A stretch of DNA of 20,313 bases from a virus: positions 1 to 20,313 of the IMG/VR virus record IMGVR_UViG_3300040960_001162; one strand, 5' to 3'. The notes under the pieces were generated by a model. That model was not told the DNA's origin and searched no databases. It saw only the letters and a program-made list of their open reading frames with translations. The stretch's first letter is position 1. Every line of letters starts with the position of its first letter. A program made the translations under genes and the position numbers. Positions 4,834 through 20,313 of this stretch are shown piece after piece.

Positions 4834-4834
4834 T

Positions 4835-5858: not shown

Positions 5859-6476
5859 ATGGCAAAAGAAATTAAACACACTGGTAAAATGAAAAACACA
5901 GGCAACAGAGTCGCTGTAGTGTTTAGAACAGTACCAGGAGAATCAGATCAATGCTTAGTAGTTGATTCTGCAACATTGCCCGATATGTATCACGATGCAT
6001 TAATGGGAGCAATTGAAACCGACCAAGCACAAGAAGCATTTGAACTTGGTGAATATATGTTTAGAAGCAGATTTCCAGATGGAAGAAATATGCTAGAAGC
6101 AATGCAGATTACTGGAAGACTTAAAAAAGTTTCTACTAGTGATGTATTGATGACACCAACACCGACAGCAAGTGTTGCATTGTCAGAACTAAACGTTCTA
6201 ATTGCAGAACAAAGAAATGTAGCAGTAGATCAGTTATATACATTTGTTAGTGGTGCACCAAAAGCAGGTGAAGCAGTAACAGAAACACCAACTGAACCTA
6301 CAACAACTGCTCCAGCAGCAGATGGTGCATTAAGCGATCAAGACTTAGCAAAATCTTTACGTAGTCAAGCAGATGCTATGTATAAAGAAGCAGCTCGTAT
6401 GCGTAGAGAAGCAGACGATCTTGATCCGCCAGCGAAGAAGACTTCTAAGAAGGCTACAGTCGCTGAAAGTGCATAA
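5859..6476 (+). CDS. Unknown phage protein (205 aa) with low-complexity and coiled-coil C-terminus
   Basis: The start is ATG 5859 (MAKEIKHTGKMKNTGNRVAV), with AGGAG at 5847-5851; an upstream frame from 5766 is a shadow. The N-terminal 130 residues form a globular domain (NRVAVVFRTVPGESDQCLVV, a helix LPDMYHDALMGAIETDQAQE, then ASVALSELNVLIAEQ). A Thr/Pro/Ala linker follows (about residues 142-160). A charged helix with heptad-like spacing (DLAKSLRSQADAMYKEAARM) and a Lys-rich tail (AKKTSKKATVA) complete it. The domain layout suggests a structural or scaffold-like role, but no known family motif is seen. From memory, the N-terminal domain recurs in T4-like marine phages as a hypothetical. Confidence 0.78.
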   Translation: MAKEIKHTGKMKNTGNRVAVVFRTVPGESDQCLVVDSATLPDMYHDALMGAIETDQAQEAFELGEYMFRSRFPDGRNMLEAMQITGRLKKVSTSDVLMTPTPTASVALSELNVLIAEQRNVAVDQLYTFVSGAPKAGEAVTETPTEPTTTAPAADGALSDQDLAKSLRSQADAMYKEAARMRREADDLDPPAKKTSKKATVAESA

Positions 6477-6774
6477 GAAATATTTTAGACCTCCGTCACA
6501 TATCGTAAAGGAATGGCCAGAAGTATTCGAGGATTTGTACATCAATACTATGCCTATTGCTTACGTGGACACAATGATTCTGGAATTCAGTGATGGCAGA
6601 ATATGGGAAATAGATGTTAAAGCCCAAACTGCCAACACTGATCCGGATGAAGTTGCTAAAAAATTGTTGGATACTCTTTCTGAGTACAAAGACACAATCA
6701 AAAAATTAGATTTTAAAATTAATATTGAGTTGTTAAAGCAAGATATTAAAAATAGAACTAAATCAATTCTCTAG
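6469..6774 (+). CDS. Unknown phage protein (101 aa), last gene of + strand run
   Basis: GTG 6469 (start GTGCATAAG) overlaps the previous stop by 8 bases. This places the start at MHKKYFRPPSHIVKEWPEVF. A frame open upstream to 6373 is only a shadow. The protein has a Pro/Trp-rich basic N-terminus, two beta strands with MILEFSDGRIWEIDVK (residues 35-50), and a charged C-terminal helical pair (DEVAKKLLDTLSEYKDTIKK, then ELLKQDIKNR). It resembles, from memory, a conserved hypothetical of T4-like marine phages. Its 3' end overlaps the converging dehydrogenase gene by 17 bases, and no terminator hairpin is visible at the junction. Confidence 0.78.
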   Translation: MHKKYFRPPSHIVKEWPEVFEDLYINTMPIAYVDTMILEFSDGRIWEIDVKAQTANTDPDEVAKKLLDTLSEYKDTIKKLDFKINIELLKQDIKNRTKSIL

Positions 6775-7942
6775 TATTACCGTAGTGAATAACTTCATAT
6801 CTTTCTGATGTGTGTTCTCTCCACGGATCAACTACAATTGAATCTTCTGTAATATCTACATACATTTCTGGATGGGCAAGAAGAACTACTGCTCTAAACG
6901 GTCCTGGATCAGCACCATAAACTTTTGGATCAACTTTCATAGGATTAAAGCCTAGTTGGTTACAATAATGATCAACCAGCAAAGCATAACTGCCGTCAAT
7001 ATATTCTACACCTGGTTTGTAAGCAATGCCATTTAATAAGATAGGCAATTCATTTTTGCGAGCAATATCACAAAGTTTCACTGCTATATTTTTTGCTTGT
7101 ACTTCACGTGCATTCATAATAGCATCAAATATGTCGTAACCTAATTCTAACTTGTCTGCCATATAGCGTAAAGCAATATTATCTCTTGGATGACACGCAC
7201 CGCCGTCGCCCATACCTGCTTTCATATAACTTGGACCCATAATACGTTGAGTACTTTCTGCTAGTGCTTTTGTTACAACATCGGTATCAATATTACCTTG
7301 ACGCTCTGCAACATCTTGAATCATATTTACTAACCCAATCTTTGTACTAATAAATGTATTATAGAAAACCTTGATACATTCACATTCGTCCCAAGTACCA
7401 ATTACATATCTTGGATCATTTTCCATAATAGATTGATAGAAGCCTTTTAATTCTTTAGCATCGCCTGTTTCGATTCCGTCTTGTGTGCCGATCATAATCA
7501 TTTCTGGATTTACCATATCCCAGGCAACTGTTCCCATTGCAATAAGATAAGGATTATACACAAATCTTGGATTAGTAACTAACTGAACAAACTCTCTACG
7601 TGTTGTTCCTGGTAGTACTGTACTAATAAGAACAAGCAGTTGACTGCTGTTCATATGCTTGTTTGCTTCTTGTAATACTTCTTTTACAATATCGTACGAA
7701 AAGTCTTTTGGTTCTAAATGTGCTGTTGGAGCTCTACCGTCATAATCAGGATCGTGTGGTGTAGGTACTGCTATAAAAACTATGTCCCTATCTTTTACAG
7801 CATCTTCGATAGTATCTTCTACAATTACATAATCACTATCTACTTTGGCAACATCATATCCTAATACACTGTGGCCTTTTTTGGCAATAACCTCCGCACA
7901 AGGCATACCCAATTTGCCTAATCCAATAAATCCGATCTTCAT
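6758..7942 (-). CDS. UDP-glucose/GDP-mannose dehydrogenase-family protein
   Basis: This encodes 394 residues from ATG 7942, chosen for GGAG at 7949-7952, 6 bases upstream. An N-terminal Rossmann fold is shown by FIGLGKLGMP (G7-x-G9-x-x-G12) and an acidic residue at the end of strand 2 (GYD). Further family signatures are VPTPHDP (59-65), STVLPGTT (107-114), the helix KVFYNTFISTKIGLVNMI, GGACHPRDN with the expected catalytic Cys at 250, and GIAYKPG near the C-terminus. The family oxidises the C6 hydroxyl of a UDP- or GDP-sugar to a carboxylate with two NAD+. The substrate is not determined. Residue 251 is His where many UDP-glucose dehydrogenases have Phe. It is the last gene of a glycan-related island, after a 142-base spacer. 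It may supply an acidic sugar donor to the adjacent glycosyltransferases (inference). Confidence 0.88.
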   Translation of the reverse strand: MKIGFIGLGKLGMPCAEVIAKKGHSVLGYDVAKVDSDYVIVEDTIEDAVKDRDIVFIAVPTPHDPDYDGRAPTAHLEPKDFSYDIVKEVLQEANKHMNSSQLLVLISTVLPGTTRREFVQLVTNPRFVYNPYLIAMGTVAWDMVNPEMIMIGTQDGIETGDAKELKGFYQSIMENDPRYVIGTWDECECIKVFYNTFISTKIGLVNMIQDVAERQGNIDTDVVTKALAESTQRIMGPSYMKAGMGDGGACHPRDNIALRYMADKLELGYDIFDAIMNAREVQAKNIAVKLCDIARKNELPILLNGIAYKPGVEYIDGSYALLVDHYCNQLGFNPMKVDPKVYGADPGPFRAVVLLAHPEMYVDITEDSIVVDPWREHTSERYEVIHYGNTRELI

Positions 7943-7968
7943 TTTTAACTCCAATTTGTAACTCTAAA

Positions 7969-7976
7969 TATTTACA
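7969..7976 (-). promoter_or_regulatory. Possible late promoter for the dehydrogenase gene
   Basis: On the - strand TGTAAATA differs from the T4 late octamer TATAAATA at one position. It lies 26 bases from ATG 7942, with GGAG in between, giving a leader of about 20 bases under T4 spacing. A TATAAT hexamer (7990-7985, - strand) just upstream could instead be an early-type -10, with only a weak -35 (GTTAAA) 17 bases before it. Both are candidates only. Confidence 0.4.
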
Positions 7977-8027
7977 ATAACCTAATTATAAAGCATTTAA
8001 ACCTGGTTTTAACGTACATAGTTCAAG

Positions 8028-8050
8028 TATAGCACTTTGTATAATAGCAC
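8028..8050. repeat. Short direct repeat ATAGCAC in intergenic spacer
   Basis: ATAGCAC occurs at 8029-8035 and again at 8044-8050, 15 bases apart. The spacer between the dehydrogenase start and the end of the next upstream gene (7943-8084) is the longest non-coding gap of the window. It contains this pair, the GACGC repeat pair at 8059-8088 and promoter-like hexamers. The repeat may be a regulator site, or chance in AT-rich DNA. Confidence 0.35.
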
Positions 8051-8058
8051 CGCTGTAT

Positions 8059-8088
8059 GACGCTTAAAATGCGTTTAAGACGCCTTAA
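8059..8088. repeat. Direct repeat GACGC-TTAA, 20 bases apart, with internal inverted repeat
   Basis: On the + strand GACGCTTAA (8059-8067) and GACGCCTTAA (8079-8088) lie exactly 20 bases apart, two helical turns. Between them CTTAAA (8063-8068) and TTTAAG (8074-8079) form a 6-bp inverted repeat around ATGCG. The right copy runs over the stop codon of the - strand gene ending at 8085. It lacks the GC stem and U-run of an intrinsic terminator, so a protein-binding site or relic is more likely. Confidence 0.4.
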
Positions 8089-9242
8089 TAATTAACTTTA
8101 CGACTAATATTCCACTTGCTCTTTTTAGAAACTAATACATTATAGTTGTGTTCCAAAATAGGTCTTACATTAGCAATAAACTCTAAAGTTTGGATTTTGT
8201 CCAAACTACACAACCGCTCAATTTCATCTACTATTGCTGTCATACGTAAACTGTCGTCTTGTACAGTATCATATGTTTCATCAATAAATGGATGGAATGT
8301 TTTATAACCTAAATCTCTTAACAAAGGCAAACTGTTTGCTACTGTTGACAAAATAAAAGGATGGCCTATTGCCATTACTTTAAAAATCTTTTCGCTGAAA
8401 AAAGGTATACCTTCGTGATACGTTGTTTCGTTTACAACACTAAAATATGTTTCTTTGTAATACTTAACAATGCTAGATTCGTATTGCGCTCTATTTGTAA
8501 CTAGATCTGTTGTATCAAGATATAGGTCGGGAAGGTCGACAATATCTTTATTACGTTCTATTAGATCATTAATAAATTTATTGTCTTTGTAAATGTTTCT
8601 TAGTTCTCTAAAAGAGTTACGCCAATTATCACCTCTGTCAGACTTTCCAAAACTTATGTGTCCTTTGTCTAATAAATTACGTTCGTACAACATAAGCATC
8701 ATCAAAGGACGATGTGATCTCCATCTACGATTTAGACACAAGAATTTTTTTGGCCACTTCTTTGTTTTTGTAATACCTATAATATTTTTGTTAGTGTGTA
8801 TTGTATCTATTCCTGTTGCTTCAAAACAATTAAAGTAATCTAATTTAAGTTGAGGAGCACCATATTTTTCTGCAACACGTTCTACAGTTTTTATCATAGT
8901 AGGAACAGCAGATTGGAAAATGACCTGTTCTGCAGGCACATCATATCTTAGAATAACATTTCTATAGATGCTTTCCACAGTATCTGTAAAGTATTCAAGT
9001 GCATTATCTAAAACTAAAAACGCATCTCTATTTCTAATCTTGTTTAAGACATCTTCCGGTACAACATCTGTAATAGGAAACATTCTAAAACTTTCTTTAT
9101 CAGAAAATTGTATATAGAAAAAATCTATGTTTTCACTTGTCTTAATTTGCGAACCAACACTGCTGTTAATTTTTATCTTTTGCGGTTCGCGAGGATTGTA
9201 TGTTTGCAAGTAAATTAAATTTGTAGAATTTAAACAAGCCAT
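8085..9242 (-). CDS. Glycosyltransferase-like protein (385 aa), paralog of the gene at 10008-11249
   Basis: The start is ATG 9242, overlapping the upstream stop as TAATG. Two conserved segments stand out. FLCLNRRWRSHRP (167-179) precedes a helix MMLMLYERNLLDKG. A later segment runs through YFSVVNETT (266-274), FFSEKIFKVMAIGHPF (281-296) and LGYKTFHPFIDETYD (311-325). The S/T-E-K-x-F-x-x-x-x-x-G-H/x-P pattern resembles the C-terminal donor-binding half of GT10-type fucosyltransferases and other GT-B glycosyltransferases. The same two segments occur in the paralog at 10008-11249, so the family is duplicated in this island. There is no signal peptide or membrane anchor, so it should act in the host cytoplasm. 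Acceptor and donor are unknown. The glycosyltransferase call is moderately confident. Confidence 0.7.
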   Translation of the reverse strand: MACLNSTNLIYLQTYNPREPQKIKINSSVGSQIKTSENIDFFYIQFSDKESFRMFPITDVVPEDVLNKIRNRDAFLVLDNALEYFTDTVESIYRNVILRYDVPAEQVIFQSAVPTMIKTVERVAEKYGAPQLKLDYFNCFEATGIDTIHTNKNIIGITKTKKWPKKFLCLNRRWRSHRPLMMLMLYERNLLDKGHISFGKSDRGDNWRNSFRELRNIYKDNKFINDLIERNKDIVDLPDLYLDTTDLVTNRAQYESSIVKYYKETYFSVVNETTYHEGIPFFSEKIFKVMAIGHPFILSTVANSLPLLRDLGYKTFHPFIDETYDTVQDDSLRMTAIVDEIERLCSLDKIQTLEFIANVRPILEHNYNVLVSKKSKWNISRKVNY

Positions 9243-10024
9243 TATAATCTACTTTGATGCCTTTGCTGCCAAAACTTATTTGTATCATCTAGTGTTTTAC
9301 ATAGATGTACTTTTTCATCCATCTCTATTGCAAAGTTTCTCATTTGCTCTGTGAATTCAAATTCAGGAAACATATTACTCACATACTCTGCGTGACCTAA
9401 TGGCGTAGGATGATAATCTGCTGTTTGTCCTTTTCCGTTATGCCCACGTATAGGTGTTGTTGGCCAACGACCATTGTATACATTTGTTACAATAGGTTCT
9501 GCAATTTTATCTACTGTGTCTTTATAAAATTCCATAACACCCGTATGCCATTCTTCTTGTGGTCTTTCAAACGTTCCGCTAATCTGTAACTCTATCATAG
9601 GACTCATAGATAGCATTTTATAATCACAAGGTAAAGATTCTAAGTAACTTGAAGCCATCTCAATTAATCCTAGATCACGTATTAAATAAAATCTGCTGTC
9701 TGCCCATTCATAAACAAATTTATTATCAAGTTCTCCTTGTGTGTAAATGTTTCCTGGAGTAATCCAATTTTTATTCTTGTATCTATCTTCTCTAGAAATA
9801 CTACTCCACATTACAACTATTAAATCATTCTTTGTAAACTTATGTTTTTTGTTTGCTTCTACAATACTGTTGCTGATAAACAAGTTTCCTGCGCCGCTTT
9901 TGCCGTAATTGTAATATTCAGGAATTTCAACTCCTATAACATCTGCCCAAGTAGGCCAAAAGTAATTTGTCATACTACATCCAAAAGCAAAAAACCTTTT
10001 GTATTCTTTACTGAACTGCTTCAT
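9242..10024 (-). CDS. SGNH-hydrolase-like protein (260 aa)
   Basis: ATG 10024 is chosen for AAGGAG at 10032-10037, 7 bases upstream; an in-frame start at 10054 falls in the preceding gene. SGNH blocks are visible. FFAFGCSMT (11-19) carries the presumed nucleophile Ser17. YGKSGAGN (40-47) supplies oxyanion Gly and Asn. VVMWSSISREDRY (70-82) resembles the third block. ADYHPTPLGH (202-211) has the D-x-H-P dyad. SGNH enzymes are esterases, lipases or acyl-transfer enzymes; glycan O-acetyl esterases are common members. No signal peptide is seen. It lies between two paralogous glycosyltransferase-like genes with overlaps of 17 and 1 bases. A role in adding or removing acyl groups on the same glycan is plausible but inferred. 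Confidence 0.75.
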   Translation of the reverse strand: MKQFSKEYKRFFAFGCSMTNYFWPTWADVIGVEIPEYYNYGKSGAGNLFISNSIVEANKKHKFTKNDLIVVMWSSISREDRYKNKNWITPGNIYTQGELDNKFVYEWADSRFYLIRDLGLIEMASSYLESLPCDYKMLSMSPMIELQISGTFERPQEEWHTGVMEFYKDTVDKIAEPIVTNVYNGRWPTTPIRGHNGKGQTADYHPTPLGHAEYVSNMFPEFEFTEQMRNFAIEMDEKVHLCKTLDDTNKFWQQRHQSRL

Positions 10025-11249
10025 TGAAGTACTCCTTGCCTTTTTGTATTGCACTGCTTAAAGCATCGTGATAAAAACTTGACTTGCGTAAATGCTCCCA
10101 ATTATGAATAATGTTTTCAAAACTATCACCGATACGTTTTAGTTTTTCATCTCTATCAAGCGATACCCAAGTTTCTAATATATTATGTATTTCATCAAAC
10201 CTTGTTTTAGGATCTTCTATACTATCATACTCTGTACCGAAACCTAAAAAGTCACACTTGAATCCTAGTTCTTCAAGACCTTTAATTGTGCCGCTACCGG
10301 CAATTAATAAAAAAGGATGGCCTAGTGCAATAGGTTTGAATATTTTCTCAGTTACAAAACTACTGTTGTCTATAAAAATAGTTTCTGTAATTATAGTTAA
10401 TAGTGTGTTTTGATATAGTTCTGCATTATAGTTCCAAGCAGCATTTGTGTTTTCCCAGTTACCATCAAGATATAAAGGATAATGCTGTTTCATTAGTTCT
10501 GTAAATTCACTAGGATTAACCCCCGCAAGCCTTGCAGATAAAATATCATTTTCTTTGAGTTGATTACAACTTACACGGCCTTTATCAAGTAAATTATTTT
10601 TTGCAAGATAATACAAGTGTGCGCCTCTGTGAGGTCTGTATACTCTGTTCAAACTGTTAAAGTCTTTAGATTCTGGATTATACATTGCATCATATATACA
10701 AGGACGTTCTGGCATTTTGTTATCAAAAAATATCTTGCCAAAATGATTACTGTACTGTACATCAAACAAACGGTCTTCCATATTTTTTTCTAGCCAAGCA
10801 TTGTAGTCTGCTTCAATTTTAGTATTACCTTGCAATATTAAAACACTGTTTTTAGGATACTTACGTTCACGCATTATTTCAGTTGTTGCTCTAAACACAT
10901 CATAATGGTTAGTAACCATTGGGCCACCTTCTTTGTCTGCAAGTATTACTATTCTAAGTTTTTTTAATTTAACTTGTTCTAGTAAGTCTGCAGGGATCAT
11001 TTGTAAAATATGTTTAGGTCCTGTTCCTTTATTTTCGCCTGACCACCAATTAGGATCGCCATTAACATCAATAAAATACAAACCACACTCATTCCAATCA
11101 GATAGTTTATGGTATTCTATACCCATACTTCGAAGTTCTCTTTTAAGTATACTTCCTGGAGATGTTAACCACCAAGTACTACTTCCGTGTGATTCAAACT
11201 GCTGTAAGTTTGACTGATCTAATTCCAAGGTATCAAAATAAATTTTCAT
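10008..11249 (-). CDS. Glycosyltransferase-like protein (413 aa)
   Basis: The ATG at 11249 overlaps the stop of the upstream radical SAM gene (ATGA). The N-terminal about 180 residues look like one alpha/beta domain (KLRIVILADKEGGPMVT, then NSVLILQGNTKI, typical Rossmann-like strands). The C-terminal half has the island's conserved pair of motifs: NRVYRPHRGAHLYYLAKNNL (201-220) and ITETIFIDNSSFVTEKIFK followed by PIALGHPFLLIAGSG (286-320), then LEELGF. The paralog at 8085-9242 has equivalents in the same order. The V-T-E-K-I-F-x-x-x-A-L-G-x-P segment is like the donor-binding site of GT10/GT-B enzymes. No membrane segment is present. Donor and acceptor unknown; the family call is moderate. 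Confidence 0.7.
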   Translation of the reverse strand: MKIYFDTLELDQSNLQQFESHGSSTWWLTSPGSILKRELRSMGIEYHKLSDWNECGLYFIDVNGDPNWWSGENKGTGPKHILQMIPADLLEQVKLKKLRIVILADKEGGPMVTNHYDVFRATTEIMRERKYPKNSVLILQGNTKIEADYNAWLEKNMEDRLFDVQYSNHFGKIFFDNKMPERPCIYDAMYNPESKDFNSLNRVYRPHRGAHLYYLAKNNLLDKGRVSCNQLKENDILSARLAGVNPSEFTELMKQHYPLYLDGNWENTNAAWNYNAELYQNTLLTIITETIFIDNSSFVTEKIFKPIALGHPFLLIAGSGTIKGLEELGFKCDFLGFGTEYDSIEDPKTRFDEIHNILETWVSLDRDEKLKRIGDSFENIIHNWEHLRKSSFYHDALSSAIQKGKEYFNEAVQ

Positions 11250-12433
11250 TCTATAATTTCCCGTAGTTCTGGAAATGTTTTTTCAAAATTTCTATTTCTG
11301 ATTTTATCGTAATAATCTGTATGTACAATAAATTGTTCTTTAAGATTTTCATCATATTTGCTGTTTTCTAAGTGTCTTACAACGTCTCTTAACAGTCCTT
11401 GTACGTGTGCATTATACTTGTGTGACTTTGCTTTTATTTTGTTTATGACACTCCACTTGAGCATATCATTAAGTATACTTGCACTGTAGTATTCGGGATG
11501 AACAATATTATAAAAAGTAGGATATACATTTGTATCAAATAGTTTTTGTTCTAACACATAATCTAAAAAATCAGTAATAGTAAAAACATTAAATGCACTT
11601 ATGACAGCACTAAAGTTTAACCTAACGTGCGGTGTTTCTCTTTTAATAAGTTTAATATTATTTTCTATCTTACTCCAATTAGTACCTTCTCTAATATATT
11701 CTGCTCTATCTCCGTAATGATCTAAACTAGCAAAAACCTGGATGTTTGGAAAATGCTTCCATAGTTCAATAACACTTTTATTTTTGTAATGTAAATTACT
11801 AAGATTAGTATTATAACTTATTTTTACATCTGTATTATTTGTTTCAATCAAATGTTCTAGTATAGCATAATGCTTATCAGTCATTAACGGCTCACCGCCG
11901 GCAAAATAAAAACTTTCTATGTCCTTAAAGTAAGGTTTGAACTGCTCATATAAACGACTGTTATCATCGCCATCAGCCATAATGAATATTTCTTTGTGCT
12001 TACCGTTAGCACTGTCTTCTTGTGCCCAAGTGCTTGAATATGTACTTGAGCAACTTCTACATTTAAAATTACAAATGTTGCTCCATCTAACATCAAAATG
12101 TCGAAGAGTCATTTCGGGATACGTACCGTCCTCTAGTGTGTGTTGTACTAGCGGAATTAAATGTGCAAACTCTTTGTTTTTAGATATACGTGTGCTTTCG
12201 TTACCACTATCTTCTTGTTGATAACAAGCACGGCAAGTGTCGCATTTTTTGCCTTCTAGCATATTGCGTCTTAACTGTTTGTATCTATCGTTGTTCCATA
12301 TTTCTTCAATTGTATTTTCTCTAACATTACCTAGATGTTTGTCATATTCACCAACACAGCAAGGTAGAACACTACCGTCTGGATTGACATACATATGGAT
12401 CCAAGGATAAATGCAAAACGATTTGTTATCCAT
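11246..12433 (-). CDS. Twitch-domain radical SAM protein (395 aa)
   Basis: The start is ATG 12433, with GGAG at 12441-12444. The N-terminal part is an auxiliary iron-sulfur (twitch/SPASM-like) region. It has FCIYPWIHMYVNPDG (6-20), PCC (24-26), the G-N-V / E-E-I-W-N segment, and CDTCRAC (64-70). The radical SAM core follows with CNFKCRSC (C121, C125, C128) and FAGGEPLM (177-184). It ends with RNFEKTFPELREI. Twitch radical SAM proteins modify peptides, proteins or sugars by radical chemistry. Placing the twitch cysteines before the core is characteristic of a family that I recall from phages and surface-polysaccharide loci. A second member of the family (13339-14706) lies two genes upstream. 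Substrate unknown. The gene overlaps its neighbours by 8 and 4 bases. Confidence 0.88.
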   Translation of the reverse strand: MDNKSFCIYPWIHMYVNPDGSVLPCCVGEYDKHLGNVRENTIEEIWNNDRYKQLRRNMLEGKKCDTCRACYQQEDSGNESTRISKNKEFAHLIPLVQHTLEDGTYPEMTLRHFDVRWSNICNFKCRSCSSTYSSTWAQEDSANGKHKEIFIMADGDDNSRLYEQFKPYFKDIESFYFAGGEPLMTDKHYAILEHLIETNNTDVKISYNTNLSNLHYKNKSVIELWKHFPNIQVFASLDHYGDRAEYIREGTNWSKIENNIKLIKRETPHVRLNFSAVISAFNVFTITDFLDYVLEQKLFDTNVYPTFYNIVHPEYYSASILNDMLKWSVINKIKAKSHKYNAHVQGLLRDVVRHLENSKYDENLKEQFIVHTDYYDKIRNRNFEKTFPELREIIE

Positions 12434-13352
12434 TGTTCCACTCCGTATACAAATTTAACGCCCACAACGAATGTTGTGTATCGTTAGGATGAGGCTTATG
12501 TTGAGGACAGTTTCCTAAATAAGCATTAGACTGTGCAATCAAATCTAATTGATGAGATACATATCTAGAATTATATTTTATTTCCCTAAAATCTTTCATT
12601 ATATGATCTAGCCAGCCTGCAACATAAAAGTCAGGCATTTCTAATTTAACTCCATTTACTTTAGCACTAAATTTTATCCAACTTTCGTCTACTTTTTTAA
12701 ATGAATGTTTGTTAGTGTCTATAATTCTACAAAAGTTTTTCCATACAAGTGTTTTTACGTTTGTATAAGGTTTTATTATTTCTTCGAGACAATTAAAAAC
12801 AATTTTATCATATTTGTCTAACCATCTATCAAAAGATATACTTTTGCTTTTTAAAAATTTTTTACTGTAAAGTTTTCCTATAGGATGTCTATATGCAGAT
12901 AAGTCAGTTAGTTGTTGTAACTCTCTACTTGGCTCAGTAACCTGCATACACAAATAAATGTTTTCATACTTTTCTTGTTCAACAATATATGGTAAAATAC
13001 GCTCTAGTTCTTTTAGCATATACAAATTACTGTTGCCTGGGACAGCGTACTGATAAAAATCAGTGTCCATTAATAGTGCAAGTTTAGGTCCGAATGTGTG
13101 TTTAAGTTGACTACATAAATCAAACTCGCCTGTTTCTGTAGCAATGTTTTCTAGGCCTTCGCCATATGCCCAACTTTCGCCGATGTTTAATAGCAAATCC
13201 TTTTTGCCTCTACGCATCCATATTTCAGTATTTTCTGCAGGTATTTTTATATGTACAGGTTTGAGATTATCATTACGTACTAAAATACTTTCAAAATTAT
13301 TTAAGATACTGTGAGATGGATCTTTTCCTATATCTGCTTTATCCCAATCCAT
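12426..13352 (-). CDS. SGNH-hydrolase-like protein (308 aa)
   Basis: ATG 13352 is preferred over TTG 13364 because GAGG (13359-13362) lies 6 bases before it. Motifs are LLLNIGESWAYGEGL (53-67) with the candidate nucleophile Ser60, YAVPGNSNLYM (102-112) with the Gly/Asn block, IYLCMQVTEPSREL (about residue 130), and HPNDTQHSLWA (288-298) carrying D291-x-x-H294. This order fits the SGNH fold and gives a complete set of candidate catalytic residues. It is only distantly similar to the other SGNH-like gene (9242-10024), mainly at these blocks. It lies between the two radical SAM genes with overlaps of 14 and 8 bases. An acyl-transfer or de-acylation step in the same pathway is inferred; the exact reaction is unknown. 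Confidence 0.7.
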   Translation of the reverse strand: MDWDKADIGKDPSHSILNNFESILVRNDNLKPVHIKIPAENTEIWMRRGKKDLLLNIGESWAYGEGLENIATETGEFDLCSQLKHTFGPKLALLMDTDFYQYAVPGNSNLYMLKELERILPYIVEQEKYENIYLCMQVTEPSRELQQLTDLSAYRHPIGKLYSKKFLKSKSISFDRWLDKYDKIVFNCLEEIIKPYTNVKTLVWKNFCRIIDTNKHSFKKVDESWIKFSAKVNGVKLEMPDFYVAGWLDHIMKDFREIKYNSRYVSHQLDLIAQSNAYLGNCPQHKPHPNDTQHSLWALNLYTEWNNG

Positions 13353-14706
13353 TACAATCCTCAAAAAATTCTACTAGATCAGGAAACGTTTCTCTAAAGT
13401 CTACATTTCTTCTTCTGTCGTATTCTCTAAACCAAGCAGCAAAATCTCTGCGGCCTTCGTTTAGTTTTTGAGCAGTGTATTCTGTACTTGACATATAATC
13501 TACTACACGTCTAAACTTTTCGTATTCCATCTCGCTAAATTTAAATCTATCCTTATCATCAAGATTATCTTTTATAAATTGCAAGTGCTTATGCATATAA
13601 GGCATAAAATCTTCCTTAGGAAGAATATTCATATCATACTGTAAAGGTTCTTTTAAGTATGGTGTATCAAATCTTATACGTTGCCATTTTGTTTGAGAAT
13701 CTGTGTTATATTTTTTACGCCATTCTAATATTTTTTCTAATAACTTATTAAAGTTTGTAACAGTTAAAATATTAAATGTAACCATAAAAGTTAAAGGATG
13801 ATTTGTTTTAGTCATATAGGTATCAAAGTTCTTTTCCCACAGTTCTAAATCTAATCCTGTACGAATGTACTCTGCTTGTTCGCCCCAAGTATCCATACTT
13901 GTAAAAACTTTAAAATCTTTAATGCAGCCTTTAGCAACAAGACTGTTTACTTTATCTGCAAAGCGTTCTATCAATATACTTTTAACACCAAAGTTACTGT
14001 TTATGTTTAATTCTAAATTAGGCATAGGGTTCTTTTCTAATTCGTCAAACATACGCCAAGTACTTTGTTGTAGTAACGGTTCTCCTCCTGTAATACGTAA
14101 AATTGTAAGTGTCTTACGTAGTTCAGGCCACCATTCCCAGAATGCTGTTACGTAAGGATTATCTTCTTCTTTATGTATTTTAAACCAATCAATGTCATTG
14201 CGATGATTTTTAACCATTGTGTATGGTCCGTGATCACGTATTTCTTTATGATATGTACTACTATGCTTAGGATGACAGTAACCACATTTAAAGTTACATT
14301 CGTTACCAAATGAAATTTCTACATACTGCGGATTAACATCAGCCATAGGGTCTGCTTTAATTGCAGTAAATCTTTCTTCAGTATAGATACTAGCATTACG
14401 TTCTTTCCTGTCTGAAATATAGTCTTTGCCCATACATTCAATATTCCAACAGTACTGACAACCGCTTGGCTTTTCACCATTAAGCATTTTTTGACGTTCT
14501 GCTTTCTTTTGAGGAGTATTATGTAGTTGACTTGGATTTTCTTTTAGTCCTTCTAATGGAATTTTATGAGGCGCAGGATGATAACAACTATGTGTTTCGC
14601 CTGTTTGTAAATAGATAGTGGTATGATGCCATTTAGCCATACAGAATGTAGGTGAAATCTCATCCATAATAGGAATAAATTTTTCTATTCTATCCTTGTC
14701 TTGCAT
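13339..14706 (-). CDS. Twitch-domain radical SAM protein (455 aa)
   Basis: ATG 14706 is used; AAGGAG at 14714-14719 lies 7 bases upstream. The N-terminal twitch-like region contains TFCMAKWHHTTIYLQTGE (20-37), SCYHP (40-44) and CQYCWNIEC (83-91). The radical SAM core has CNFKCGYCHPKHSSTY (C137, C141, C144) and ITGGEPLLQQ (205-214). The C-terminal RRNVDFRETFPDLVEFF matches the end of the second radical SAM gene in the island, which supports common ancestry. Compared with that paralog it has an insertion between the cluster and GGEP (F-W-E-W-W-P-E-L region). It shares 17 and 14 bases of overlap with its neighbours. It probably acts in the cytoplasm with host ferredoxin or flavodoxin as reductant (family knowledge). 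Substrate unknown. Confidence 0.88.
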   Translation of the reverse strand: MQDKDRIEKFIPIMDEISPTFCMAKWHHTTIYLQTGETHSCYHPAPHKIPLEGLKENPSQLHNTPQKKAERQKMLNGEKPSGCQYCWNIECMGKDYISDRKERNASIYTEERFTAIKADPMADVNPQYVEISFGNECNFKCGYCHPKHSSTYHKEIRDHGPYTMVKNHRNDIDWFKIHKEEDNPYVTAFWEWWPELRKTLTILRITGGEPLLQQSTWRMFDELEKNPMPNLELNINSNFGVKSILIERFADKVNSLVAKGCIKDFKVFTSMDTWGEQAEYIRTGLDLELWEKNFDTYMTKTNHPLTFMVTFNILTVTNFNKLLEKILEWRKKYNTDSQTKWQRIRFDTPYLKEPLQYDMNILPKEDFMPYMHKHLQFIKDNLDDKDRFKFSEMEYEKFRRVVDYMSSTEYTAQKLNEGRRDFAAWFREYDRRRNVDFRETFPDLVEFFEDCNGLG

Positions 14707-15745
14707 CAAACTGCTCCTTTAGCCATTTAAAATCATTTATCTTGCGAAGTGCATCAGGCTCAGCACTATTGCTAACACCATATTTCCTACCGGCTCTGGC
14801 GCCTTGAATAGCATAGTCCCCAAACGGTCTGTCTCTACCGTAATCACTACACCATTTACTAAGTCTTTCATCTGTTTCATCATCTTTTTGACCTTTAATA
14901 GTTCTACTTGCTAACTTACAACATTCTCTAAAAGCACTTTTCCAGGTACTAAATGCATCTGTGTTAAATGCTGTAATGTTACTTACTTCTTCCATCGCTC
15001 TAAAACTGTCAGAAAGGCTTGTAGTCATATCTGGACTGTTTATATCCATATCAATTGTGAGTTGACGTGGAAATAATTTAACTCCGCCGTAGCCGTATTC
15101 TAAATCTGTTATAGGATTTCTACCTCTCCACACATAAACACTTTTTCTAGCATTAAAATCGTAGTATGGTATTTGCATATCAAACTTAAAACTATCAACT
15201 ATTTCTGCATCAGCGTCTACAATATAAAACAATTCAGTTGTACACTGCTTTGCTGCTTCTATGTGTGCTTGGTGTATACCCGTTACATCTTTAATCCATA
15301 CAGCATTAGGAGACTTAGCAAGTAACTTGTTATAGTTTATTTCTGCATTTGCTTCGTGATATGATATAAATGCAACATCAAATAATTTTGATTTACTTGC
15401 AACAATATCTATTTCTTTTTTGTTTGTGAAAAATCTATAATCCCATTCACGTTGTAATATACGTGCAGACTTTGGAAAAATGCATACACCATCATAATAA
15501 TTTCCGTTGCGGAAAACGTGTACATAATTTGCGTCCCATTCAGGAACTCTATAATCTAAATTAAAATCATCGGCTAGTTCTAAATTGTCCCATACAACCC
15601 AAAAATGTTTTGTTAGACTTTTAGTTGCAACTTTCTCAAATGTTTTACAGTGTTCTATCTTCTGTGCATTAGGAAATCTCTGCTTGAACACTGTCCAACC
15701 ATCGATATTACACTCACCATTGCTGACAAAAAAGATATCATACAT
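14690..15745 (-). CDS. GT-A-like glycosyltransferase with internally duplicated domain (351 aa)
   Basis: The start is ATG 15745, overlapping the upstream gene by 8 bases. The sequence consists of two related halves. Residues 2-106 (YDIFFVSNGECNIDGW onward) align with residues 122-233 (FDVAFISYHEANAEINYNKL onward). The second half carries a D-x-D metal/donor motif in FYIVDADAEIVDSFKFD (173-189). The first half has the corresponding FWVVWDNLELADDFNLD (48-64), where the two Asp are replaced by Trp and Asn. Downstream, AFRECCKLAS and YAIQGARAG match the neighbouring gene at 15738-16646. The second half is probably the active GT-A domain. The first may be a non-catalytic copy, for example for substrate binding. 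Donor and acceptor unknown. Confidence 0.72.
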   Translation of the reverse strand: MYDIFFVSNGECNIDGWTVFKQRFPNAQKIEHCKTFEKVATKSLTKHFWVVWDNLELADDFNLDYRVPEWDANYVHVFRNGNYYDGVCIFPKSARILQREWDYRFFTNKKEIDIVASKSKLFDVAFISYHEANAEINYNKLLAKSPNAVWIKDVTGIHQAHIEAAKQCTTELFYIVDADAEIVDSFKFDMQIPYYDFNARKSVYVWRGRNPITDLEYGYGGVKLFPRQLTIDMDINSPDMTTSLSDSFRAMEEVSNITAFNTDAFSTWKSAFRECCKLASRTIKGQKDDETDERLSKWCSDYGRDRPFGDYAIQGARAGRKYGVSNSAEPDALRKINDFKWLKEQFDARQG

Positions 15746-16646
15746 ACTTTTGACTATAATAGGTAGTACCTAATCTAATAGTTTCCTCGTATAATGCCAT
15801 TACGTATCTACTTTCTTGCGGATCCAATGTTGGCCAATCTAATCCTAAATTGGTTCTTATCTCGTTACCTAACCATTTAGTTTTATCAACCAAACCAATT
15901 TCATCTGTTTCGTATTGCTTACATTGTTCATTATAAAGATCACGTAGTGATTCAAAATCTCTAACTTGAATATGATCCCAGTCAGTACAGTTTGTAAGAT
16001 ATGTTCCTAATCTTGCACCATAAATGGCCCATAAGCCATTATCAATATGAGAACCAACTGTACTCCATATCCTTAATCTATGCAAGTTGTGCCACCATAT
16101 ACGCTCTTCGATCTCCATAGGCGGAACTTGTAATCCGCCATCTAACGTCATCTTAACTCCTTCACGGAATCCCGCTCGCCAAGCCATAAAAGGAGTTTCA
16201 TTGATAATTGTATCACTATATGTAACTGGAAAGTTTCTATAACCTTCTTCCCAGCAAAAATCTACTTGTGCTCTTTCACTATCTGCATTTTCGTGTGTTT
16301 TCATATCAAGGATATGCTGGCGATGCCATAACTTTAAGCCACCATTTCCGTAACGCAACCCATTAACATTATTTCTGCCGCACCAACTATATGCACGGAT
16401 TTTTTCATTTGTCATATCTAAATCTAAATCAAAAAACTTAGGATCAACAATGTTGTCTGCATCTACAGTTAGTACCCAATCTGTTTCTGCTGCTTCTGCT
16501 GCTGCTTTGTGTGCGTGGTCTGATCCTTTTACACCGTGTATACGTTGCGCCCAAGGAACTTTATTACAAAGGTCGGCATAGTGTAAATCAGCATTTGGCT
16601 CATCATAACTTAAAAAGAAAACATCAAATTCTACTACTTTTGTCAT
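15738..16646 (-). CDS. GT-A-like glycosyltransferase (302 aa)
   Basis: The ATG at 16646 overlaps the upstream stop as ATGA; GAGGA lies just upstream. The N-terminus FDVFFLSYDEPNADLHYADL (7-26) is clearly homologous to the second half of the neighbouring gene. WVLTVDADNIVDPKFFDLD (57-75) contains the D-x-D motif (62-64) used by GT-A enzymes to bind the metal and nucleotide sugar. YSWCGRNNVNGLRYGNGG and AWRAGFREGVKM correspond to conserved segments in the neighbour. No membrane helix or signal peptide is present. The gene probably arose with its neighbour by duplication. Sugar donor and acceptor cannot be read from the sequence. Glycosyltransferase fold call good, specific family uncertain (GT2-like). 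Confidence 0.75.
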   Translation of the reverse strand: MTKVVEFDVFFLSYDEPNADLHYADLCNKVPWAQRIHGVKGSDHAHKAAAEAAETDWVLTVDADNIVDPKFFDLDLDMTNEKIRAYSWCGRNNVNGLRYGNGGLKLWHRQHILDMKTHENADSERAQVDFCWEEGYRNFPVTYSDTIINETPFMAWRAGFREGVKMTLDGGLQVPPMEIEERIWWHNLHRLRIWSTVGSHIDNGLWAIYGARLGTYLTNCTDWDHIQVRDFESLRDLYNEQCKQYETDEIGLVDKTKWLGNEIRTNLGLDWPTLDPQESRYVMALYEETIRLGTTYYSQKYV

Positions 16647-17287
16647 ACTTCCTCGAATACATAATTTTTAAAAAGTCTGCGTGTAAACACACTAGCATCA
16701 TCTGGACATTCGCAAGTAAATTCAAATGCTTTACCTACTATATCATCTAGTTTAACACTAGCGGTATAGTAACTTGTGTGTGGATCATTATATTCACATA
16801 TATCAAAACTTAAAATAGTTTCACCGTCCCAAAATATTTTTCTTTTTGCTACTGGTTCATCTCTGTTTAATTTATATGTACCACCAAACTTTTCTGATAG
16901 TTGAACTGTAAATTTATCACCTTTGCGTGATACAATAACATCAGGTTCGTCTATATCCGCCCACTTAATATCTATTACTCTATGTAGTACGTCATCAATT
17001 TTAAAAAGATTTTGTACTTCAGTAATCTCTAAACTTCCTGATTGTACATCAATAAAACATTTACTTAAAGGAACTTCACCTTCTAATATTGCAAGTGCAT
17101 TTTCTTTATCAATTTCTATAGTATTTTTAAAACGAGTTGTGTCAATAGAGTAATCAGGACCTACACAAAGTACCTGACCTGATTCTTTGTCAAAGGCTGC
17201 AAGATATGTAATAACTGGTGGTTTCCAGTTCGCAGCCCATTCATCAAAATCTGGGAGGTCAGGAATTTCTCTTATCTTTTCTTCCAC
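16643..17287 (-). CDS. Unknown beta-rich protein (214 aa) in the glycosyltransferase run
   Basis: The start is GTG 17287, supported by GGAGGA (17294-17299) 6 bases upstream and a 16-base overlap with the previous gene. The product begins with an acidic, Pro-rich segment (EIPDLPDFDEWAANWKPP). It continues as alternating strands: ITYLAAFDKESGQVLCVGPD, then FIDVQSGSLEITEV, then DVIVSRKGDKFTVQLSEKFG and IFWDGETILSFDICEYNDPH. It ends with VFTRRLFKNYVFEEV. There is no D-x-D, Fe-S or SGNH motif, so it is not visibly an enzyme. The layout looks like a beta-sandwich binding or virion-associated protein, possibly an acceptor or tail-associated protein; this is inference. From memory, similar proteins accompany tail-fibre regions of marine T4-like phages. 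Confidence 0.72.
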   Translation of the reverse strand: MEEKIREIPDLPDFDEWAANWKPPVITYLAAFDKESGQVLCVGPDYSIDTTRFKNTIEIDKENALAILEGEVPLSKCFIDVQSGSLEITEVQNLFKIDDVLHRVIDIKWADIDEPDVIVSRKGDKFTVQLSEKFGGTYKLNRDEPVAKRKIFWDGETILSFDICEYNDPHTSYYTASVKLDDIVGKAFEFTCECPDDASVFTRRLFKNYVFEEV

Positions 17288-18117
17288 GCTATTTCCTCCA
17301 ATATGTTAATTGTTTCTAATGTAATTTTATCCTTTTCCACATAATGTAAAATATCAGTTTGTTGGAAATTTCCTATTTTAACTTTTGCATTTCTATCAAA
17401 ATAAAACCCTACGTGATCAGATACTGTGTCTGCTGGATAAGGCCAATTTTGTATCATACCTTTCATATGTACAACACGCGGAAACTCTAAAGGGTATGCA
17501 ATATCATCAGCAACATCTAAAATTTTTGCTGCTAGTGCAAATGCTTCGTCTGTTCCTACAACTTTAGGTTTTTTATTAACTAAAAATTCATTAGAATATC
17601 TGTCTGGATTTTTAATAATTTCTCTTTGTAGGTTAAAGAAATCTTTTGCTAATGTACTATTTTTAACAAAAAATGTGTAAAAGGAATATAAGTTAGGTAA
17701 ATCGTTGGCTGTAAAACATTTTCTGTAATGATCATCAGTAACTAGTTCGCCTCTATATGTGTATGCATTGTTAGCAACATATAGTTCACTGTTGTTGATA
17801 AAATACTCTGCCCAATGGCTGTAATCTCTAAAAAACAGCATATCTGCATCTAAGCATACAGTATTTTCAAAAGGTGTTAGTGTATCCATATAGGATCTAC
17901 TATCCCAACCTTCTGGACCTTTCCATTCAATTACGTGATCAAACACCCAGGTCGAAGTGAAGTTTTCAATATGATCCTTATTGTCTATTACTAGTGCAAC
18001 TTTGTCATACCCTTCTTTTTGTGTATTCTTGATGCTTAATGCTAATGCATATGCAAGACGTGTGTAATTTGTGTCAGCACCTTCATTAACAATAATTAAA
18101 TATCCAAAGTCAATCAT
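17272..18117 (-). CDS. GT8-like glycosyltransferase (281 aa)
   Basis: The start is ATG 18117, with GGAG at 18123-18126, 5 bases upstream, overlapping the preceding stop as ATGA. The N-terminal Rossmann-like segment DFGYLIIVNEGADTNYTRLA is followed by KVALVIDN and TVCLDADMLFFRDYSH (86-101) with D90-A-D92, the metal/nucleotide-sugar motif of GT-A enzymes. Later, VVHMKGMIQNWP has a His placed as the third metal ligand seen in glycogenin-type GT8 enzymes. The gene is related to the adjacent one at 18114-18965 in the D-x-D region. It is followed with a 16-base overlap by the 214-residue unknown gene. No membrane segment. Donor unknown. Confidence 0.78.
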   Translation of the reverse strand: MIDFGYLIIVNEGADTNYTRLAYALALSIKNTQKEGYDKVALVIDNKDHIENFTSTWVFDHVIEWKGPEGWDSRSYMDTLTPFENTVCLDADMLFFRDYSHWAEYFINNSELYVANNAYTYRGELVTDDHYRKCFTANDLPNLYSFYTFFVKNSTLAKDFFNLQREIIKNPDRYSNEFLVNKKPKVVGTDEAFALAAKILDVADDIAYPLEFPRVVHMKGMIQNWPYPADTVSDHVGFYFDRNAKVKIGNFQQTDILHYVEKDKITLETINILEEIAWKKR

Positions 18118-18965
18118 ATTAACTCCATTAGTTGATTAATATTTCTTGTAATAGATTGTTTATTCATAATATGAATATCTCTACCTTTAATATTACACAA
18201 AGTATAATCATTTAAATTTGCAGTTAGTAGTTTGATACCGTTTGCATCGACTTCATAAATCATATCTTTATCTGGCACTGAAAGTACAGGCGGCATTGCA
18301 TAATCATCATCTGTTTCAAATCCATACATAATATGTCTAGCGATAGCAAATGAAATATCATTTCTATACATTCTGCTATCAAATCTATAAAGGTCTGCAA
18401 ACTTTTTGTAATTGTCTTTAATATGTTTTACTAGATCAAAAAATACTTTTGTATTTTCGTTTTTTGTAAACATAACTGTTGTTGCCCATAAAAGTTTTAC
18501 ACCTGTTTCGCTAATATACTTGTCTAAGTATCCTACTCTACTTCCTTGAACATCGTTATATTCTGGAGAGATGAGCAAGTCTGCATCAATATTCCAATAT
18601 TCATTTAGAGAATCACTAAAAACAAAATAATCGCAATCTATCATTAGTGTTCTATCATAAGGTGTAAGATCCCAAACACTGGATCTATTACTATTTTTAA
18701 ATGGAGCAACTACACTTTCTTTTCCGTCATTAAATTTTCTTTGTTGTGTATCTTCGGGTCTGTCAACTGTAATAATATTTTCAAAAACTTCGAGTGCTTT
18801 TTTCCATAGATCAGATTTGTGCATCCAATCAACAGTTGATTGATCTGTAACTAAACTAACAGGAACCTGTAGATGTTTTTTAGCAAGGCCACCGGATACA
18901 ATAGCCATCTTAGCATAATCTATCTGCCTGTTATTGTGTGCAAATATTAATATGCCTTTTTTCAC
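18114..18965 (-). CDS. GT8-like glycosyltransferase (283 aa)
   Basis: The start is GTG 18965, overlapping the previous stop (GTGA); no strong ribosome binding site is visible, so translation probably depends on coupling. N-terminus MKKGILIFAHNNRQIDYAKM and PVSLVTDQ fit the first strands of a GT-A fold. WDLTPYDRTLMIDCDYFVFS (98-117) carries D110-C-D112 at the D-x-D position, equivalent to LDADMLFF in the next gene. The C-terminal IKGRDIHIMNKQ contains a His near the expected metal-ligand place. It is clearly related to the gene at 17272-18117, giving a tandem pair. Replacement of the middle residue by Cys is conservative. Sugar specificity unknown. Confidence 0.75.
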   Translation of the reverse strand: MKKGILIFAHNNRQIDYAKMAIVSGGLAKKHLQVPVSLVTDQSTVDWMHKSDLWKKALEVFENIITVDRPEDTQQRKFNDGKESVVAPFKNSNRSSVWDLTPYDRTLMIDCDYFVFSDSLNEYWNIDADLLISPEYNDVQGSRVGYLDKYISETGVKLLWATTVMFTKNENTKVFFDLVKHIKDNYKKFADLYRFDSRMYRNDISFAIARHIMYGFETDDDYAMPPVLSVPDKDMIYEVDANGIKLLTANLNDYTLCNIKGRDIHIMNKQSITRNINQLMELI

Positions 18966-19309
18966 GATACTAGCGTCTCTACTGATCTACTTTTTTTAAT
19001 TTTTGTATATTCTTCGTGATATTCAAATGTTGCTGTGAAATATCTATCAAAAATTTCATCTCTAAATTCTTCCAACTTTTCTACTAAAATTGGATTTTCA
19101 TTTGTATCTAGTATTACTACATTTTCTGTTCTATCTTTATTGATAAGCATTTCTACAAAGTTTAATAGATTTCTATCAATTTTAAAAATACCACCATTCT
19201 TACCATATGTAAGTCTAGCGTCAATCTTTTCTTTTAGGGTTTTGCGCTGAACAGAAAGTGTTTGACGATACTTGGAAAATTCCAAAGCATCTTTATATTC
19301 ATTTTGCAT
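18962..19309 (-). CDS. Small unknown protein (115 aa), first gene of the - strand island
   Basis: The start is ATG 19309, with AAGGAG (19315-19320) 5 bases upstream, about 21 bases downstream of the predicted late transcription start. The product is mostly helical: an N-terminal segment LEFSKYRQTLSVQRKTLKEK, a short beta part TENVVILDTNENPILVE, then LEEFRDEIFDRYFTATFEYH and a basic end. The D-T-N-x-N-P-I segment followed by helix resembles, from memory, small proteins found beside tail-fibre genes of marine T4-like phages. A tail assembly or chaperone role would fit its position directly after the structural gene. That is inference; there is no motif that proves it. Confidence 0.75.
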   Translation of the reverse strand: MQNEYKDALEFSKYRQTLSVQRKTLKEKIDARLTYGKNGGIFKIDRNLLNFVEMLINKDRTENVVILDTNENPILVEKLEEFRDEIFDRYFTATFEYHEEYTKIKKSRSVETLVS

Positions 19310-19383: not shown

Positions 19384-20313
19384 TTAGCCTATTTCTATAA
19401 TAGAACCAATGTTTACAATAGGTGTAGCAATGTTGAAACTTCCTGCTCCGCCTGGTTGTAGTGTTCCTGTTGCTTCTGTAGTTTGAACGCTTACAGAAAC
19501 TTGTCCATCTACTACGTCAGGACCAAAACCACCATCACCTGGATTCGATGGTCCAACTACAGGCGGACCGCCTTGCTCCTCGTGATCATCAATCAGCTCT
19601 ATTCTAATTTCAATAGTATCAGCACCTGTTAGATGTGGATTTGCTTGGTTAGGAGTTCTAGCAAAAATTCTGTATCTGTTTAGTGAATAAGGACTTGATC
19701 CTACTACATCAACATAAGGATCTTGGAAAGTACTTGTGCATTTATAAAAGTTACTACCATTAAATGTAGGACCTGCTCCAGTACCTGGATGATTTCCGCT
19801 AAACTTTTGTGTTCCTGCTGCATTTAAAATACTAGTCCAAGAAGCATTCTGGTTAGTAGACAGTCCTCCGGTTCGTGTTGTAGTGATATCAATACTGCTA
19901 CCGCTGTTAAAAAAGTGTCTACTTTCGTCTAGATCGCTAAACAACACGTAAACTGTACAGGTAAGTGAATCACTCCAGTTATCACCGTAAGTTGGATCTG
20001 GCCAAGTTCTTTGTACTGTCCCGTGATTTACTGTTCGTCTTTGGCCTGCAACTGCTAGGTTTCTAGCATTTGCGTAGATATCATTTACAAATGCTGCCCA
20101 TTTATCAACTGGCTGTGAAGGTCCACCTGACGCTGGTGCTTGGTATTTAATTTTTTTACGTTCAGTAACTTCAAGCATACTAACTTCATTTGAACCACTT
20201 GGAAGTGCGTTATTTAAATGTGTGTATGCATTCCAAATGTCATATCTTAAATCAGAATACTGTTGTACAGTAACTCTATCACTTGTGCTTACCTGCGAAC
20301 TTAATACAGGCTG
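19384..20313 (-). CDS. Tail/virion structural protein, C-terminal 309 residues (5' end outside window)
   Basis: The - strand frame is open to the right edge, so the start lies outside; an internal Met at 20178 is not the start. It ends at TAA 19384. The visible part begins with QVSTSDRVTVQQYSDLRYDI (7-26), the kind of segment found between repeats of large fibre-like proteins. A domain follows with NWSDSLTCTVYVLFSDLDES (112-131), RHFFNSGSS (132-140), a Thr/Gly-rich stretch, then SSPYSLNRYRIFA and TIEIRIELIDDHEE. A Pro/Gly-rich linker (GGPPVVGPSNPGDGG) and a beta-rich tail end it. The F-F-N-S-G and D-D/H segments recall large virion structural proteins of marine T4-like phages. Tail fibre or baseplate-associated is most likely; the exact part is not determined. 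Confidence 0.75.
   Translation of the reverse strand, partial: QPVLSSQVSTSDRVTVQQYSDLRYDIWNAYTHLNNALPSGSNEVSMLEVTERKKIKYQAPASGGPSQPVDKWAAFVNDIYANARNLAVAGQRRTVNHGTVQRTWPDPTYGDNWSDSLTCTVYVLFSDLDESRHFFNSGSSIDITTTRTGGLSTNQNASWTSILNAAGTQKFSGNHPGTGAGPTFNGSNFYKCTSTFQDPYVDVVGSSPYSLNRYRIFARTPNQANPHLTGADTIEIRIELIDDHEEQGGPPVVGPSNPGDGGFGPDVVDGQVSVSVQTTEATGTLQPGGAGSFNIATPIVNIGSIIEIG

Follow-up and report, generated by a model that had tools for sequence, protein, structure and literature searches.

Our analysis of a 20,313-base virus record (IMG/VR record IMGVR_UViG_3300040960_001162, hereafter the window) showed that thirteen open reading frames (ORFs) on its minus strand, numbered g01 to g13 in transcription order (19309 to 6758), form an island of two separable modules: g01-g06, which lies behind tail genes, and g07-g13, with g07 at the joint. 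The tail-type gene g00 directly precedes the island and runs off the contig end; a preliminary description of this DNA was thus right to place thirteen same-strand genes behind a virion structural gene. We suggest, with confidence a little short of even, that the island works in the cytoplasm to glycosylate and otherwise modify tail proteins of the phage itself, including tailoring by radical and acyl chemistry. This is the likeliest of the readings considered, and remodelling of host surface glycans is its main rival.

The modular structure emerges from relatives of the window. Scans of viral contigs with g09 (best 80 of 197 relatives) and g05 (best 80 of 89) yielded 155 loci, which collapse into 68 groups when those that share sequence are merged. 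We counted the 34 groups in which the contig extends 1.5 kb or more, in both directions, past whichever of g01-g07 lie outermost. Because loci were picked through g05 or g09, these two genes are favoured in the counts. Relatives of g07 were present in 33 groups, those of g01, g02, g03 and g05 in 31, of g06 in 30 and of g04 in 29. The order g01-g02-g03-g05-g07 was kept in 30 of the 34, with g06 before g07 in 26 groups and after it in four, and the ORF immediately upstream was g00-like in 28. Three groups (L040, L072 and L074) hold g07 and distal genes, namely g08-g13 in L040 and L074 and g09 with g12 in L072, without relatives of g01-g06 at E-values up to 1. It is because of these groups that we describe two modules, and they rule out one indivisible island. 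The second module, which usually follows the first, stands alone at positions 7716-18569 of L040, 3052-14963 of L074 and 8647-12304 of L072. In L145, g01-g05 are present and g06 and g07 were not labelled, yet both gave weak tblastn matches. Joint, ordered recurrence, and not single genes in scattered places, is therefore the pattern seen. The dedicated single pathway proposed in the preliminary description survives as a shared, recurrent module; one pathway is not established, because the second part occurs without the first in those three groups.

A separately anchored survey gave a similar picture. As an independent anchor we used the convergent neighbour at 6373-6774, whose best 80 of 466 relatives fell into 33 groups. 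Two of these had no detectable anchor ORF and seven had less than 2.5 kb beyond it, all seven showing g13; in the 24 groups with room, island genes were found at the anchor site in 24, any island gene being counted. This sample leans to near relatives and has many contigs in common with the g09 and g05 scans. Content varies at the site: L340 has only g13, and L326 has some island genes on the opposite strand. Purely sporadic cargo is thus not supported in the sampled relatives, and the recurrent order together with the anchored site rules out a chance grouping of genes.

The first module also recurs in metagenome-assembled genomes (MAGs), where six contigs of five MAGs, among 80 genome-contig g09 loci, carry g01, g02, g03, g05 and a radical S-adenosylmethionine (SAM) gene in order. 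These are probably phage contigs placed in MAGs. In the five contigs inspected, tail-type ORFs lie upstream, two labelled g00 by blastp and the others judged by eye; one locus (L168) has an extra ORF between the tail-type ORF and the island. Among viral relatives, genes further upstream match tail-fibre PHROGs in L108 and L148. Gp23, the major capsid family of T4, turned up in five of the 12 virus records and in the two MAGs searched, the records being so fragmentary that misses mean little.

Within the window, adjacent ORFs from g01 to g12, as listed, overlap by 1 to 47 nt, and gaps of 74 nt and 130 nt separate g00 from g01 and g12 from g13. True starts may lie downstream of the listed ones, and that of g13 is probably the ATG at 7942, preceded by GGAG. 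No terminator-like site was found between g00 and g01. A single late promoter had been claimed to precede the first twelve genes, and this did not hold: the window has no exact TATAAATA on the minus strand and a single copy on the plus strand, against 3.3 expected, and late-promoter-type sites with at most one mismatch number 58 against 73 expected, AATAAATA at 19336-19343 preceding g01. Likewise, the promoter-like site ahead of g13 (8012-7985, 10 of 12 positions) is of a kind observed 57 times against 69 expected. We rejected the late-promoter argument, as site counts are no better than chance. The thirteen proteins do look cytoplasmic, as first described: the highest 19-residue mean hydropathy among them is 1.43, and none has a membrane-type hydrophobic stretch.

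By their family matches, g07 and g09 are the two twitch-type radical SAM enzymes that had been recognised. Both exceed the curated cut-off of 170 for NF033640 (N_Twi_rSAM), with 325.2 bits (6e-97) for g07 and 394.9 bits (4e-118) for g09, which also matches PF13186 and PF04055. The invariant cysteines comprise an N-terminal set (C23, C42, C84 and C87 in g07; C7, C25, C67 and C70 in g09) and a CX3CX2C motif (C138, C142 and C145; C121, C125 and C128), in 24 and 23 aligned sequences respectively, and profile comparison with hhalign relates the two proteins at 99.9%. The one sugar dehydrogenase in the preliminary description is g13, on sequence grounds a member of the UDP-sugar dehydrogenase superfamily (PF03721, 66.7 bits, and PF00984, 63.1 bits, both above cut-off; phrog_9148, 2e-97). 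In UDP-glucose and GDP-mannose dehydrogenases the glutamate of a PEFL segment is catalytic. In g13 the catalytic cysteine position is kept (C254, invariant in 23 sequences) but NPYLIAMG replaces PEFL, with Y136 in 23 of 23 sequences, and we therefore assign no particular substrate. NPYL likewise occurs in Synechococcus phage Bellamy, neither pattern was found in HTVC008M, and L058 carries a second dehydrogenase, with PEFL. As g13 is the sole sugar-nucleotide enzyme recognised among the thirteen proteins, to call the set complete-looking was too strong.

The three glycosyltransferase pairs described earlier stand as pairs, hhalign relating g02 to g03 (97.3%), g05 to g06 (100%) and g10 to g12 (99.9%); their family labels are motif-level or weak. 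We call g02 and g03 GT8-like and g10 and g12 GT10-like by motif resemblance, and the GT-A-like labels of g05 and g06 come from motifs and weak matches. Both g02 and g03 have a DxD metal site, a feature not specific to GT8. The 17 PDB matches listed for the g02 profile are all glycogenin, weak (E 0.59-0.98), and neither protein matches any Pfam family, PF01501 (GT8) included. For g05, three GT2 Pfam models score 14.9-16.6 bits (E 0.012-0.026), all under cut-off, and g06, like g05, has an invariant aspartate pair of DxD type. No Pfam family, PF00852 included, matches g10 or g12, and g10 has no convincing PDB match. In hhalign comparisons g02 and g03 reached 9.1% and 1.9% against seven GT8-hit ORFs, and g10 and g12 reached 0.2% and 0.7% against two GT10 proteins, low values that are weak evidence in either direction, as the controls of the GT8, GT10 and SGNH comparison include doubtful-looking ORFs (L246, L250, L258 and L265).

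The two SGNH-like proteins of the preliminary description fared differently. The predicted structure of g08 (AlphaFold model, pLDDT 93.6) has an SGNH-type fold: Foldseek gave ten matches with E-values of 0.001 or less (best 4.6e-5; TM by query low, at 0.30-0.38), among them GDSL lipases, carbohydrate esterases and a thioesterase, and structure comparison with the G-D-S-L protein 4rw0 gave Z 12.3 and a root-mean-square deviation of 2.9 over 162 aligned residues. The candidate serine and histidine are invariant in 22 sequences, and the aspartate three before the histidine is not. The label of g11, which matches no Pfam family and nothing convincing in the PDB, is a motif label; like the GT10-like labels of g10 and g12, it follows a motif that we take to mark the family. 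A duplicated pair is not what we found, g08 and g11 being not detectably related (0.2% by profile comparison). Two proteins of no assigned function had been counted, and they are g01, with no Pfam match above cut-off and none convincing in PHROGs or the PDB, and g04, whose best Foldseek match has an E-value of 0.028 and whose structure comparisons stay below Z 5. The libraries scanned gave no family match for g00, and profiles of eight island families gave, beyond the weak glycogenin matches of g02, nothing or chance-looking matches in the PDB. The genes are listed in the table.

Table. Genes of the island and the preceding tail-type gene, with the observations behind each label.
Gene and label	Module	Coordinates	Strand	Basis
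g00, tail-type virion protein		19384..20313	-	in relatives closes an array of tail-fibre-type genes; incomplete at contig end
g01, conserved 115-aa protein, function not assigned	first	18962..19309	-	conservation in relatives
g02, GT8-like	first	18114..18965	-	invariant D110 and D112 (n=24 sequences); weak glycogenin matches
g03, GT8-like	first	17272..18117	-	invariant D90, D92 and H217 (n=23 sequences); related to g02
g04, beta-rich protein, function not assigned	first	16643..17287	-	no convincing fold match
g05, GT-A (GT2-like)	first	15738..16646	-	sub-cut-off GT2 Pfam models; invariant D62-A63-D64
g06, GT-A-like	first; after g07 in some relatives	14690..15745	-	hhalign to g05; invariant D177 and D179
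g07, N-terminal-twitch radical SAM enzyme (rSAM1)	found with either	13339..14709	-	NF033640
g08, SGNH-fold protein (SGNH1)	second	12426..13364	-	predicted fold; invariant S64 and H298
g09, N-terminal-twitch radical SAM enzyme (rSAM2)	second	11246..12433	-	NF033640, PF13186, PF04055
g10, GT10-like (motif only)	second	10008..11249	-	invariant E301 and K302
g11, SGNH-like (motif only)	second	9242..10054	-	invariant G25, C26, S27, N57, D213 and H215
g12, GT10-like	second	8085..9242	-	hhalign to g10; invariant S283, E284 and K285
g13, UDP-sugar dehydrogenase superfamily	second	6758..7954	-	PF03721, PF00984, phrog_9148; C254 invariant

The genes diverge at different rates. Across the 26 groups where g00 and g01-g07 could all be labelled (70% coverage), the median identities to the window are 79% for g07, 71% for g03, 69% for g01 and g05, 58% for g06, 56% for g02, 45% for g04 and 39% for g00. 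The distal medians are 52% for g08 (7 groups), 56% for g09 (21), 47% for g10 (14), 51% for g11 (17), 46% for g12 (16) and 72% for g13 (15). Thus g00 and the distal genes vary more than g01, g03, g05 and g07, save g13, which is not fast-changing; g04 is not among the slow-changing genes. Within island limits a further 241 ORFs of 90 aa or longer carry no assignment; they form 66 clusters, some probably being spurious antisense ORFs. With the MAG locus L173 counted as a separate group, they include two further radical SAM families (18 and 17 loci, 9 groups each), a B12-type radical SAM protein (15 loci, 10 groups), a DegT-type aminotransferase (9 loci, 6 groups) and a halogenase-type protein (4 loci, 2 groups). 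The halogenase-type cluster includes an ORF between g02 and g03 of L112 (7070-8545), a member of the tryptophan halogenase family (PF04820, 3e-86). A uroporphyrinogen decarboxylase-like gene (PF01208) occurs in one group, in L073 (4693-5634) and L076, and one carbamoyltransferase in L171. Between tail-fibre-type genes of L108 lies an ORF (2565-3098) without a Pfam match, which we take from its motif to be a candidate 2-oxoglutarate and Fe(II)-dependent oxygenase; relatives of it stand upstream of g01 in 5 of the 18 groups with more than 5 kb there.

Of the eight genes that we tried against 50,697 phage records (g00, g01, g03, g05, g07, g09, g10 and g13), those for the radical SAM enzymes and the dehydrogenase alone found matches. 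By tblastn, g00, g01, g03, g05 and g10 had no match there, nor did g01 and g05 of the distant relative L073, and matches to g09 were found in 41 records (40 of them Vibrio phages), to g07 in two and to g13 in 31. The radical SAM gene of Vibrio natriegens phage nt-1 is distantly related (22%), and the g13 relative of phage Bellamy, 60% identical, stands beside genes annotated as phosphoheptose isomerase, epimerases and glycosyltransferase. The exonuclease of the window is nearest to that of Pseudomonas phage PA5oct (49%). A QueE-like gene lies upstream of it (1441-2451; phrog_2076, 2e-53), and PA5oct has QueE before its exonuclease in the same arrangement. Profiles of eight island genes (g01-g05, g08, g10 and g11) found no relative in the PA5oct stretch save one weak g08 match: PA5oct gp135 (L159 31538-31963), noted in its record as structural and detected by mass spectrometry, aligns with the central part of the g08 profile at 16.8 bits. 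Elsewhere in the window, 4781-5230 has a short H-type lectin domain match (PF09458, E 0.0013) under cut-off. For bacterial relatives of the radical SAM genes, 92 of 132 chosen neighbours (44 loci) matched 108 Pfam families, none in more than three members; no glycosyltransferase is among the 25 neighbour families listed, and the bacterial context therefore gives no support for a sugar role. Contigs titled Bacteriovoracaceae and Oligoflexia carry arrays of N-terminal-twitch-type radical SAM ORFs, eight in 12 kb (L174 6037-18033) and four in less than 6 kb (L161 3182-8765).

Tail-adjacent glycosyltransferase islands of T4-like phages are already known as a type, and the open-licence literature consulted, supplementary gene tables aside, yielded no description of the first module or its gene order. 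The host recognition cluster (HRC) of T4-like pelagimyophages holds tail fibres, several glycosyltransferases (GT8 the commonest), radical SAM cassettes and a UDP-glucose 6-dehydrogenase among lipopolysaccharide (LPS)-type genes, and is described as a hypervariable island without synteny, located between VrlC and gp14 (PMC7029224). Tail fibres and glycosyltransferases, here with motif-level labels, likewise meet in the structural region of our groups. In contrast to the HRC, the first module keeps its order and content in most groups while the distal part varies, and the exonuclease points towards PA5oct. A search with PF11649, meant to place the island relative to VrlC and gp14, gave no match in the 12 records, nor in any control. 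The T4-like genome TARA_ERS488813_N000010 resembles ours in its many radical SAM genes (12), which are discussed as Fe-S metabolism; glycosyltransferases are not mentioned in that text (PMC5332604). Cyanophage clusters of LPS type and for halogenated metabolites are described as sporadic and, like our island, combine paralogous glycosyltransferases with sugar enzymes, and relatives of our island also have halogenase-type and carbamoyltransferase genes; the cyanophage sets for sugar supply are fuller, whereas here there is one dehydrogenase and a recurrent first module (PMC7824862). Moraphages, large phages placed outside the T4 families, have four glycosyltransferase orthogroups among their shared genes (PMC12619734), a likeness by description. 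In Vibrio phage K566, four g09-like radical SAM ORFs (one shown with an N-terminal SPASM-type domain) lie among two Pfam GT8 proteins (8e-8 and 2.5e-12) and a GT4-like protein, and both gene types thus meet again in a named phage record. The same eight profiles found no relative in the radical SAM stretches of K566 and KVP40 at E up to 1, and radical SAM identity is 20-27%.

How might such an island act? If it decorates tail proteins, the GT8-like and GT-A-like pairs would build a short glycan on newly made tail protein, rSAM1 would alter a sugar of this glycan or a side chain through radical chemistry, and the second module, with the GT10-like pair, rSAM2, the SGNH proteins and the dehydrogenase, would add or trim terminal groups. 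Fibres so decorated may change host binding or shield the virion. In this scheme we infer the acceptor, the sugars, the order of action and the radical reaction. The recurrence of the first module behind tail genes, the g00-like ORF upstream, the anchor site and the MAG contigs all point in this direction. So do the tail-fibre matches in L108 and L148, the absence of a terminator-like site after g00 and of membrane-type segments, the invariant residues of catalytic type, and the oxygenase-like genes ahead of g01 in some groups. Several observations weigh against it. The link to the tail does not extend to the second module, because L040, L072 and L074 carry genes of that module with neither g01-g06 nor an upstream gene labelled g00, although 3 to 8.6 kb is available there, and these three groups have lowered our confidence. 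The glycosyltransferase labels lack family-level support. KdsA is a Kdo enzyme typical of LPS, and a KdsA-like gene (PF00793) lies inside the island in two groups (L060 and L073, at 2925-3698 of the latter). In K566 a gene annotated as PagP (lipid A acylation; L157 24990-25439) starts 2.3 kb past the GT8 gene of the radical SAM cluster. Finally, the published reading of similar islands is modification of host LPS (PMC7029224, PMC7824862).

These last points favour an island that acts on the glycan of the host surface (LPS core or O-chain), remodelling it in the course of infection and so blocking competing phages, which we regard as possible though doubtful. It was proposed for GT8-rich islands that also hold tail fibres and radical SAM cassettes (PMC7029224) and for the cyanophage clusters (PMC7824862), and would suit both a second module that can stand apart from tail genes and the sugar genes beside the g13 relative in phage Bellamy. 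Yet the thirteen proteins include no flippase, polymerase or initiating-transferase family, as an O-antigen or capsule locus would, and no membrane-type member; placement behind structural genes suggests late expression, when blocking competitors would be of little use; and the first module recurs in a set order, whereas the published reading was built on sporadic clusters (PMC7824862). An unlikely alternative is that the island, or at least the second module, makes a diffusible product, either a modified peptide or a secondary metabolite of amino acid and sugar, an idea akin to one published for cyanophage clusters (PMC7824862). Two radical SAM enzymes with an auxiliary-cluster domain, a second module that occurs alone, and the B12-type radical SAM proteins, halogenase-type proteins, aminotransferases and single carbamoyltransferase of relatives would fit it, but the ORFs from g01 to g12 leave no space in which a separate short precursor gene could lie, although a precursor might be encoded in another frame or elsewhere, and none of the thirteen proteins looks like a transporter. 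Phage glycosyltransferases are known to glucosylate phage DNA (PMC12619734), and the window has its QueE-like gene, but we think modification of DNA bases highly improbable: the first module sits among structural genes, and no base-hydroxymethylating family was found in the 20 window proteins scanned, ten small ORFs being outside the scan.

Decoration of the phage's own tail proteins might be part of a wider picture, which as a whole we put forward as a speculation more likely wrong than right: a tail-glycan assembly line in several uncultured T4-like lineages, where radical SAM enzymes would rewrite a sugar or an amino acid of the fibre, the first module would supply a common linkage and a mobile second module a phage-specific terminal structure. 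We know of no example of such radical SAM chemistry on any virion. The first module and g07 make a defined seven-gene set for expression and testing, and phage nt-1, through its distantly related radical SAM gene, offers a laboratory entry. A product located on the host would make remodelling a trait that recurs in a set order instead of one met now and then. Were it on the virion, widespread uncultured phages would routinely decorate their tails as part of infection, which would bear on how they bind, hide or diversify.

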